Below, in pieces: positions 52,470 through 55,044 of a stretch of 64,000 nucleotides of DNA (position 1 is the first letter of the stretch; each line of letters starts with the position of its first letter). The notes below the pieces were generated by a model. The model was not told the origin of the DNA and ran no database searches. It saw only the letters and a list, made by a program, of their open reading frames with translations. A program made the translations under genes and the position numbers. Origin of the DNA: Alphaproteobacteria bacterium (GTDB lineage: Bacteria > Pseudomonadota > Alphaproteobacteria > Micropepsales > Micropepsaceae); the NCBI GenBank assembly GCA_021325375.1, contig JAJPHG010000039.1, positions 34,390 through 98,389 on the forward strand, in the 5' to 3' direction.

Positions 52470-52747
52470 CAGTTCAAAACTCCGTTCAGTCTCGCGGCTT
52501 GCAGAAAGCACTGATAGCAGAGCAATTTGATATCAGCGCTCTTCTCCAGCTCTTCTGTCCATTCGCCGCCATTTGCATTCAACATTTCGTCGCATTCACT
52601 GCAATAGGCGCTGGGCTCGTCAGCGGCATCGAGTGACGAATAGATAAATCCCCGAGGAATGCCATCATGGAGAGAGTCGAGAACGTGCGAGCAAACAAAC
52701 GTCTCACTCGACGCGCCATGCTCATCACATTGCACCGCGTCGCTCAT
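52469..52747 (-). CDS. Small cysteine-rich, probably zinc-binding protein inside the nuo operon
   Basis: 92 aa, read from the tail of track ORF 52469-53398. Metal-ligand candidates: Cys7/His10 ([18 protein letters not shown]), Cys19/His21, Cys49-x2-Cys52 (YCSECDEML) and Cys77-x2-Cys80 ([13 protein letters not shown]). ATG 52747 overlaps the nuoD stop as ATGA and its stop shares a base with the nuoE start, so translation is coupled on both sides. It resembles small bacterial proteins of unknown function with a CDxHG...CxH...WCxxCE pattern. Not a complex I subunit I recognise; an assembly or regulatory role is speculation. Confidence 0.7.
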
Positions 52748-53931
52748 CGGTCGACCTCCCCGAACACGATGTCGAGGGAGCCCAGGATGGCGGAGACGTC
52801 GGCGAGCATGTAGCCGCGGCCCATATAGTCCATCGCCGCCAGATGCGCGAAGGACGGCGCGCGCAGCTTGCAGCGGTAGGGCTTGTTGGTGCCGTCGGCG
52901 ATGAGATAGACGCCGAACTCGCCCTTGGGCGCTTCCACAGCGGCATAGACCTCGCCCGCGGGCACGTGGAAGCCCTCGGTGTAGAGCTTGAAGTGGTGGA
53001 TCAGCGCCTCCATCGAGGTCTTCATCTCGGCGCGCTTGGGCGGCACGACCTTGTTGTCCGTCGAGGACACCGGCCCGGAAGGCATCCTCTCGATGCACTG
53101 TCTCATGATGTGCACCGCCTGGCGCATCTCTTCCATGCGCATCAGGTAGCGGTCGTAATTGTCGCCGTTCTTGCCGATGGGGATCTGGAAATCGAGATCG
53201 CTGTAGCATTCGTAGGGCTGCGCGCGGCGCAGGTCCCAACCCACGCCCGTCGAGCGCAGCATCACGCCGGAGAAGCCCCACTCCTCCGCCTCCTTGCGGT
53301 TCACCACGCCGATGTCGACGTTGCGCTGCTTGAAGATGCGGCTCTCGGTGAGCAGGCCCGCGATGTCGTCGAGCACCTTGGGGAACGCGTCGCACCATGC
53401 GCCGATGTCGTCGATGAGCGCGGGCGGCAGGTCCTGGTGCACGCCGCCGGCGCGGAAATAGGCCGCGTGCATGCGGCTGCCGCTGGCGCGCTCATAGAAC
53501 ACCATCAGCTTCTCGCGCTCCTCGAAGCCCCAGAGCGGCGGGGTGAGCGCGCCGCAGTCCATCGCCTGCGTCGTGACGTTCATCAGATGGTTGAGGACGC
53601 GGCCGATCTCGCAATAGAGCACGCGGATGTATTGGCCGCGCGGCGGCACCTGGAGGCCGAGCAGCTTCTCGATGGCGAGCGCGAAGGCGTGCTCCTGGTT
53701 CATCGGGGCGACGTAGTCCAGCCGGTCGAAATACGGGATCGCCTGGAGATAGGTCTTGTGCTCGATCAGCTTCTCGGTGCCGCGATGCAGGAGACCGATA
53801 TGCGGATCGACGCGGGTGACGATCTCGCCGTCGAGGTCGAGGATCATGCGCAGCACGCCGTGGGCCGCAGGATGCTGCGGGCCAAAGTTGACCGTCATCT
53901 TGGGATCGTCGTGCGGAGCGGGCTGGTCCAT
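52744..53931 (-). CDS. nuoD: NADH-quinone oxidoreductase subunit D
   Basis: 395-aa 49-kDa-type subunit forming the quinone site. [43 protein letters not shown] and [25 protein letters not shown] are diagnostic. Start at ATG 53931 ([11 protein letters not shown]), with GGAG 8 bp upstream. The track ORF runs further into the four-helix-bundle cassette. nuoC and nuoD are separate genes, as is usual in alphaproteobacteria, but here 483 bp apart because of the cassette. Confidence 0.96.
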
Positions 53932-53947
53932 CAGGCCGTCTCCGGAC

Positions 53948-53975
53948 GCGAATGGCGAATAGCGAATAGCGAATA
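53948..53975. repeat. Left heptamer array, four GCGAATR units
   Basis: GCGAATG once then GCGAATA three times, uninterrupted. Inverted relative to the array at 54387-54414. Confidence 0.9.
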
Positions 53976-53992
53976 GCGGTTCGGCGGCGAAG

Positions 53993-54376
53993 TCATGACC
54001 CCTCGTCCCGATTTTGAAGCGATCGAATAAGGCTTCGTACCATTTTGCCCAGAGTTTGACACTGCTCGACAAGTGGCGCGAGCTTCTTCTCGTCCAGAAG
54101 CCCAACTCTCGCGGCGAGAAGCAGGTGAGTTTCCAATTCCTTCAGCGACCCCTGCGCTATACGCAAATACTGAATGAAGCTCTGCGTACTCTCTCGTCCA
54201 TGACCTTCCGCGATATTTGCCGGAATTGAAGCGGCTGCTCTCCTGATCTGGGAGGTAAGGCCGAACATCTCCTCTTTGGGAAATGCCCGCGTCAGCAGAT
54301 AGCAATTCTCCGCAAGCGCCATGGCGTCCTGCCAAACACGCAAGTCCCGAAAAGAATTGATCTGCTGCTCCGTCAA
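53993..54376 (-). CDS. Four helix bundle protein (S23 / rRNA intervening-sequence protein family)
   Basis: 127 aa, TTG start at 54376. [54 protein letters not shown] and [17 protein letters not shown] follow the family pattern closely. The family was named from ORFs in intervening sequences of 23S rRNA and is also seen as single genes; its biochemical role is not established, and it is related to the Avd accessory protein of diversity-generating retroelements. No reverse transcriptase or rRNA lies here. It is the only gene of the heptamer-flanked cassette and is oriented with the nuo operon. Confidence 0.9.
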
Positions 54377-54386
54377 AACTCATCCC

Positions 54387-54414
54387 TATTCGCCACTCGC
54401 CATTCGCTATTCGC
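54387..54414. repeat. Right heptamer array, four YAYTCGC units
   Basis: TATTCGC, CACTCGC, CATTCGC, TATTCGC in tandem, ending exactly at the nuoC stop codon. Reverse complement of the left-array unit. Confidence 0.9.
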
Positions 54415-55044
54415 CTATTTCTTCTCCGTGCCGCCCGACGCCACGCCCGGCGCCATCGCGGCCTTCTCGTCGCCCGGCAGGATGTGCGGCGCGCCTTCCC
54501 ACGGGCTCATGAAGTCGAAGTCGCGGAATTCCTGGACGAGCTGCACCGGCTGATAGACCACGCGCTTGAGCTCGTCGTCGTAACGCAGCTCGACATAGCC
54601 GGTCAGCGGGAAATCCTTGCGCAGCGGATGGCCGGAGAAACCGTAATCGGTGAGCAGGCGGCGCAGGTCGGGATGATCCGAGAACGACACGCCGTACATG
54701 TCGAAGGTCTCGCGCTCGAACCAGTTGGCGCAAGGATGCAGGCCTACGACGGACGGCACTGTCTCGTCCTCGGCCACCGCGAGCGTCACGCGCAGGCGCA
54801 GGTTCCGCCGCAGCGACAGCAGGTGATAGACGACGTCGAAGCGCTTCGCCCGCTCCGGCCAGTCGACGCCGCAGATGTCGATCAGAAGGCGGAATTCCTC
54901 GGCATCGCGCAGATAGGTCAGCACACGGACGATCTCGGCAGGCGCCACGTCGAGCGTCAGCTCGCCCAGCGCCATGCGGGTTCCCAAGACCGCGCCGGCC
55001 AAGGCGCCTGCGATCTTCTCGCCGAGCTGTTCCAGCGGTTCCAT
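54415..55044 (-). CDS. nuoC: NADH-quinone oxidoreductase subunit C
   Basis: 209-aa 30-kDa-type subunit of the Q module. [42 protein letters not shown] and [23 protein letters not shown] are the family signature. Starts 3 bp after nuoB. The last codons (ASGGTEKK) and stop directly border the heptamer array of the inserted cassette. Confidence 0.96.

Follow-up and report, generated by a model that had tools for sequence, protein, structure and literature searches.

A 467-bp unit that separates nuoC from nuoD in the 64-kb stretch of DNA analyzed here (the window) is probably best read as a mobile unit that carries no transposase, that ends in inverted heptamer arrays, and whose only gene encodes an S23-family protein that would recognize those arrays. 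Judged from sequence comparisons, the mobility of the array-bounded family to which this unit belongs is well supported, and participation of the S23 protein in that movement is our best guess. An earlier sequence-only reading of this DNA had proposed that the unit is small and mobile, lacks a transposase of its own, and has the heptamer arrays as its ends. These proposals agree with arrays that flank most family members and whose arms match one another within a locus, with the patchy occurrence of the insertion at the nuo site, with the existence of empty sites, and with gene-less copies that have the same ends. In what follows, G-numbers denote genomes and L-numbers denote loci; the source genome, G000, is a 4.77-Mb assembly that is 100% complete.

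The whole unit occupies positions 53948..54414 on the minus strand, in the sense of the nuo operon, and an S23 unit is also found in G041 and G439. Its left, gene-distal array (53948..53975, plus strand) consists of four GCGAATR heptamers that run 5' to 3' inward, namely GCGAATG GCGAATA GCGAATA GCGAATA. The right, gene-proximal array (54387..54414, minus strand) is inverted relative to the left and reads GCGAATA GCGAATG GCGAGTG GCGAATA on the minus strand. Thus, the claim of four GCGAATR heptamers on each side holds for all four units on the left and for three of the four on the right, where the remaining unit, GCGAGTG, departs by a single A to G change. The 29-nt arms are 86% complementary to one another, and their period-7 scores, 21.5 and 13, are the top two within the window; the maximum among 3000 shuffled 220-mers was 12. 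The upstream host gene, nuoC (54415..55044, minus strand), ends in a TAG stop codon (54417-54415) that directly abuts the unit on its right. On the left, 16 nt separate the unit from the start codon (53931) of the downstream host gene, nuoD (52744..53931, minus strand), with a GGAG at 53940-53943 just outside the unit, in agreement with the placement first described, between the nuoC stop codon and the nuoD ribosome-binding site. The flank at 53932..53947 (minus strand) contains GGAG(ACGG) and resembles GGAGAAGAA at the nuoC end across the unit, a resemblance that is ambiguous: the GGAGAAG and GGAGACG that flank the unit may represent a target duplication that is not exact, or nuoD may have had its ribosome-binding site formed anew. 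No transposase gene is present within the 467 bp.

The gene carried by the unit (53993..54376, minus strand) belongs to the S23 or 23S_rRNA_IVP family, encodes a protein of 127 amino acids and begins with a TTG codon; the AGGGA upstream of it is created by the junction between array and gene. The protein scores 136 bits against Pfam PF05635 (cut-off 33.8) and 133 against TIGR02436, "four helix bundle protein" (cut-off 24, E 4e-39), which bears out the single S23-family gene ascribed to the unit, and it is the sole PF05635 match in G000. An AlphaFold model of the protein (pLDDT 92) superimposes with a TM score of 0.82 on 2GSC, the pentameric XCC0516 fold, and, more distantly, on Avd, an accessory protein of diversity-generating retroelements, in its reverse-transcriptase complex (TM score 0.75 to 4DWL and 8UB7); the match to the Avd profile itself is weak and under the cut-off (E 3e-6). 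The protein therefore has both a profile score above the curated cut-off and the four-helix bundle expected of its family. None of the PADLOC defence models matched. Probing for relatives gave no match in E. coli genomes and one weak match in phages.

We matched the nuo region in 67 of 69 genomes of the genus, and among these 67 congeners an S23 unit lies between nuoC and nuoD in only three (G000, G041 and G439), which are not united as a clade. In most of the others the two nuo flanks match separately, with no S23 unit between them, and at the empty junctions that were examined the nuoC stop codon overlaps the nuoD start codon or nearly does so. The gap in G007 holds a gene-less element with the heptamer word of G000. 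On a tree of nuoC and nuoD together the three carriers require three changes, with G000 branching apart and with the empty G438 and G440 nested in a clade with G041 and G439. A single vertical insertion was rejected for the trio given these three changes and an S23 tree that does not unite the three; independent insertions and losses are both possible explanations of these trees. Comparison of this junction among relatives had been suggested at the outset, and the empty junctions in congeners, together with other empty sites on plasmids, are of the kind that was sought. Vertical presence across a whole order, named there as evidence to the contrary, was not seen.

This distribution makes it extremely unlikely that the S23 gene is an immobile host gene belonging to the nuo operon, with repeats beside it by chance. 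Between G041 and G439 the S23 frame at this site shows purifying selection (dS 1.29, dN 0.14), as would suit a host gene, but the patchiness and the absence of a clade on the nuo tree count against one, as do the known empty sites, a nested copy described below, and the S23 copies of the genus that sit elsewhere. G417 has its copy at a different site, with the word GTGARTA, and G421 and G431 have copies at a shared third site, where both frames are broken. A gene-less element on contig C43 of G000 likewise corresponds to a precise 81-nt gap with contiguous flanks in G438, G440 and G439.

Gene-less elements of this kind are numerous in the source genome. The G000 assembly contains 67 matches to the pattern GCGAATRGCGAATR and none to its reversed control, and these sites resolve into about 24 two-armed gene-less elements of the form (GCGARTR)3-5, a loop of 5-60 nt, and (YAYTCGC)3-5. 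In nearly all of them the outer edges are a GCGA start and a TCGC end. They are intergenic, and most lie 0-17 nt from a predicted gene end. Given that they share their heptamers with the nuo unit, the S23 unit is the long form, equipped with a gene, of a palindrome family dispersed in the genome. Trimer arrays of the GNNARTN type outnumber matches to the reversed pattern by 108:1 in G000, 97:1 in Bosea and 32:1 in Chloroflexus, and those of Chloroflexus carry the word of its own S23 locus. Across the genus, at least 9 array matches are found in all six carriers of the S23 unit and in 2 of 27 HMM-tested non-carriers, the carrier status of four genomes in this comparison having been taken from DNA matches. 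G007 has 22 array matches and no S23 hit at 96% completeness, indicating that a genome can have gene-less arrays while lacking the gene itself. On contig C4 of the same genome, a short coding stretch lies between two gene-less heptamer elements, both complete and separated by about 500 nt (L173:787-1426), a possible composite arrangement. A separate palindromic repeat of about 135 bp, unrelated to the heptamers and matched on both strands, is present in at least 25 copies in G000 and in more in congeners (L021:1973-2108, corresponding to G000:C43:165572-165707).

The dispersed short palindromes of G000 are a feature shared with REP/REPIN-RAYT systems, and the terminal inverted repeats, together with gene-less derivatives that keep the ends of the gene-bearing form, are features shared with MITEs and insertion sequences. 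In each case the likeness is to short, palindromic, non-autonomous elements accompanied, within one genome, by a less common form that carries a gene. The nuo-type arms differ from REP elements and MITEs in being tandem 7-mers whose word depends on the locus, and the only gene of the S23 unit encodes a four-helix bundle without a known catalytic site. The resemblance of the gene-less palindromes to REP/BIME elements would suit a REP-like system on which a Y1 (RAYT) transposase acts in trans, and the fold that S23 shares with Avd, which serves a reverse transcriptase, would suit a retroelement. The genome-wide enzyme search, made in 18 genomes, covered these two families, as PF01797 and PF00078, respectively, and neither is found in G000, which also sets the nuo unit apart from the diversity-generating retroelements to which Avd belongs, despite the similar fold and the weak profile match. 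Nor does either family match in G041, G375 (with 11 S23 copies), G129, G085, G326 or the single-contig G332. We therefore rejected a Y1 transposase or a reverse transcriptase acting in trans as the mover, and we consider a REP-like or retroelement system of this type to be highly unlikely.

The survey of S23 flanks spanned many phyla, with 80 loci taken from named genomes and 31 found by HMM in the same class. Of 107 flanks of 220 bp on each side, 72 upstream and 71 downstream had 7 or 14 as their best tandem period and 13-14 had 8, compared with 7 or 14 in 43 of 319 control windows from the same loci. The words vary from locus to locus (for example, GGCAGTC, GGGAGTC, GGTGTAG and AGGATTG, with 8-mers in Brucella), but within a locus one arm agrees with the other: an arm match score of at least 14 was reached at 73 of 106 S23 loci, against 9 of 636 cross-locus arm pairs (p about 1e-42) and 1 of 184 control windows (p about 4e-30). 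Short arms are visible by eye at the weak-scoring loci L022, L024, L042 and L053. Among 150 sampled genomes of Xanthomonadaceae, 65 contain S23, and in this family the arms match at 28 of 30 S23 loci against 25 of 150 crossed pairs, words often being common to several loci. The flanks of L117-L119, which are weak family matches (15-34 bits), contain no arrays. Comparable arrays around other family members had been called for by the sequence-only reading, and inverted arrays of 7- or 8-mers with arms that match within the locus do surround most of them.

The array word also co-varies with the protein, which that reading had put forward as a check. Words become more alike as protein identity increases (Mantel r 0.25, p 0.001), independently of G+C content, from a mean similarity of 0.45 below 30% identity to a mean of 0.81 above 70%. 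This modest correlation fits recognition of the word by the protein, and co-inheritance of a gene and its ends would produce one as well.

Several loci show how the arrays themselves may change. At what is apparently one site in two Brucella species (L043:2925-2975 and L044:2930-2975), the four 8-mer repeats of the left array read TAGGGGAG in one and TAAGGGAG in the other, as if homogenized by slippage. Very long arrays of tens of units are found at L070, L041, L052, L094 and L098, several of them unequal between the two sides, pointing to slippage expansion of each arm separately. The inverted repeats at an acidobacterial locus, L089, recur every 11 nt and not every 7 or 8. In G375 there are 11 S23 matches within 1.5 Mb, with 7- or 8-mer words that differ among the copies, and most of the loci examined there (among L113 and L122-L130) have an upstream array only.

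These observations bear on a reading in which the arrays alone are mobile, or arise by slippage, and the S23 gene is a passenger spread by homologous recombination that plays no role in movement. Gene-less arrays are more numerous than S23 genes, some genomes have arrays and no S23, a gene-less element occupies the nuoC-nuoD gap of G007, and a Nostoc plasmid (L210) has array-like sequence without S23 where its relatives hold S23, all of which would follow if S23 were dispensable. However, S23 sits between matching arms at most loci, in many phyla and with very different words; the copies within G375 bear different words in a single genome; the genomes of the genus that have S23 are the array-rich ones; and a passenger would not so consistently be one and the same gene. 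We therefore regard a passenger role for S23 as unlikely, and favor a mobile unit in which S23 reads the arrays.

Filled and empty sites on plasmids provide a closer view of insertion. Flank identity in these pairs is 92-98%, and the cleanest comparison is that of Trichormus L201 with Nostoc linckia L205 and Fremyella L206 (97-98.5% identity). The Trichormus unit lies after the upstream stop codon, with GTAAT on both sides or, allowing one mismatch, 8 nt. On the Nostoc N6 plasmid (L213), the S23 gene is split by a 175-bp gene-less element that has TTGA on both sides and whose arrays and adjoining inner sequence match the S23 element of related plasmids. Two other plasmid sites show a few missing target bases and no duplication; in G000, about 10 nt are imperfectly repeated around one element, and another element shows no repeat. 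Target duplications, which had been put forward as a check, were thus observed at some sites in short or imperfect form (GTAAT, of 5 nt or of 8 with one mismatch; TTGA, of 4; about 10 nt, imperfect) and were absent from others, some with a small deletion. No single duplication length emerged from these sites: lengths vary, and two plasmid sites have small deletions.

The S23 reading frame is also carried by intervening sequences (IVSs) of 23S rRNA. A quarter of a century (25 years) after IVSs were discovered, their origin and function were still called unclear (PMC4990558). In Coxiella, tandem GACAGAT heptamers mark the 5' end of the IVS, which also has a terminal stem of 28 bp and is cleaved by RNase III (PMC4990558). 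Three S23 loci in our survey lie inside 23S (LSU) rRNA and have inverted heptamer arms, in keeping with the history as an rRNA intervening sequence that the sequence-only reading had mentioned for the family. The nuo unit resembles the IVSs of Leptospira and Coxiella in its PF05635/TIGR02436 gene, in the inverted terminal repeats between which that reading frame lies, and in the heptameric repeats; it differs in being located between two protein genes, nuoC and nuoD, and not inside a 23S rRNA gene, and in the presence of gene-less copies of its word in G000.

RNase III cleavage of the Coxiella IVS invites a reading at the RNA level, in which the arms form a hairpin in the sense transcript that serves as an RNase III site or in mRNA processing or regulation. 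The orientation of S23 units in operon gaps would favor this: in the broad set, 58 units have the same sense as both neighbors and 2 the opposite sense, and the upstream neighbor has the sense of S23 in 80 of 84 cases. In Xanthomonadaceae, however, 5 of 23 S23 loci with two neighbors are antisense, and ordinary small genes at the S23 loci of this family are themselves co-oriented in 19 of 29 cases. Orientation was therefore rejected as proof of an RNA-level mechanism, being weaker in Xanthomonadaceae and in part normal for small genes. More directly, arm mismatches comprise 107 G:U, which pair in sense RNA, and 101 A:C, which do not. Given this near equality, the symmetry of the arms is one of DNA and is not kept as a sense-RNA hairpin, and selection for such a hairpin was rejected. 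We judge the RNA-hairpin explanation to be very unlikely; the sense orientation of S23 units probably reflects dependence on read-through transcription.

Returning to a transposase-less mobile unit, we propose the following mechanism. A family member consists of two inverted arrays, each of about four 7-nt words (8-nt in some lineages) with the G-rich strand directed inward, and between them either a single S23 four-helix-bundle gene or a short loop alone. The arrays would be the recognition ends of the unit. An S23 pentamer, with the fold of XCC0516 and Avd, would bind the arrays and marshal strand exchange by a host enzyme or by one not yet recognized, and gene-less copies would move in trans. 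The unit would tend to settle in gaps of transcribed operons because its S23 gene has no obvious promoter and would survive by read-through.

Elements of this kind are known in part, as rRNA IVSs and as MITE-like palindromes; the open-access literature was searched, and an earlier description elsewhere is possible. In the papers cited here IVSs are treated as a feature of rRNA, with no link to genome-wide heptamer palindromes. Heptamer arrays have been described separately in Xanthomonas (GGGAATC) and Nostoc (GGGGA(C/T)T), usually with four units, often as convergent inverted pairs, and in intergenic positions, with 70-75 convergent pairs of GGGAATC per Xanthomonas genome (PMC4692102). They were discussed as G-quadruplex-forming repeats, and the terms "four helix" and "S23" are absent from that report (PMC4692102). 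The likeness to the arrays described here lies in their tandem, inverted heptamers and in S23 genes of Xanthomonadaceae, similar to XCC0516, that lie between GGGAATC-type arrays; the gene at L235, for example, is very close to XCC0516 (E 9e-54). The family thus ties together repeats and genes that had been described apart. If all are one mobile unit, the rRNA IVS would gain a source, and the heptamer arrays of Xanthomonas and Nostoc, which were described without connection to any protein, would gain a mover. We suggest tentatively, and with somewhat less than even confidence, that S23 is the sequence-reading subunit of a transposition system without a recognizable transposase, in which each pentamer recognizes a 7- or 8-nt word specific to it, protein and word diverge in step, and rRNA IVSs, the Xanthomonas and Nostoc arrays, and many PF05635 genes of CRISPR loci are products of the system.

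PF05635 genes beside cas4 and cas6 have been reported among the functions of interest that accompany CRISPR loci (PMC3936711), and PF05635 genes in cas loci have been interpreted as Avd-like components of immunity in prokaryotes (PMC10053308). If the mobile unit described here accounts for them, these associations may be insertions, since plasmids with a cas6-S23-cas4 order have near-identical relatives without the unit. We found this order in Anabaena sp. 90 and Pseudanabaena, with long 7-mer arrays whose word differs between the two. A Dolichospermum plasmid with 98-99% flank identity has no S23 unit in the cas6-cas4 gap and has another insert instead. In type I-D CRISPR plasmids the cas6-cas4 gap is a recurrent insertion site, occupied by S23 units of different words in two cyanobacterial genera and by a different insert in a third plasmid (L202:2600-3500, L203:1300-1640 and L204:2760-3500).
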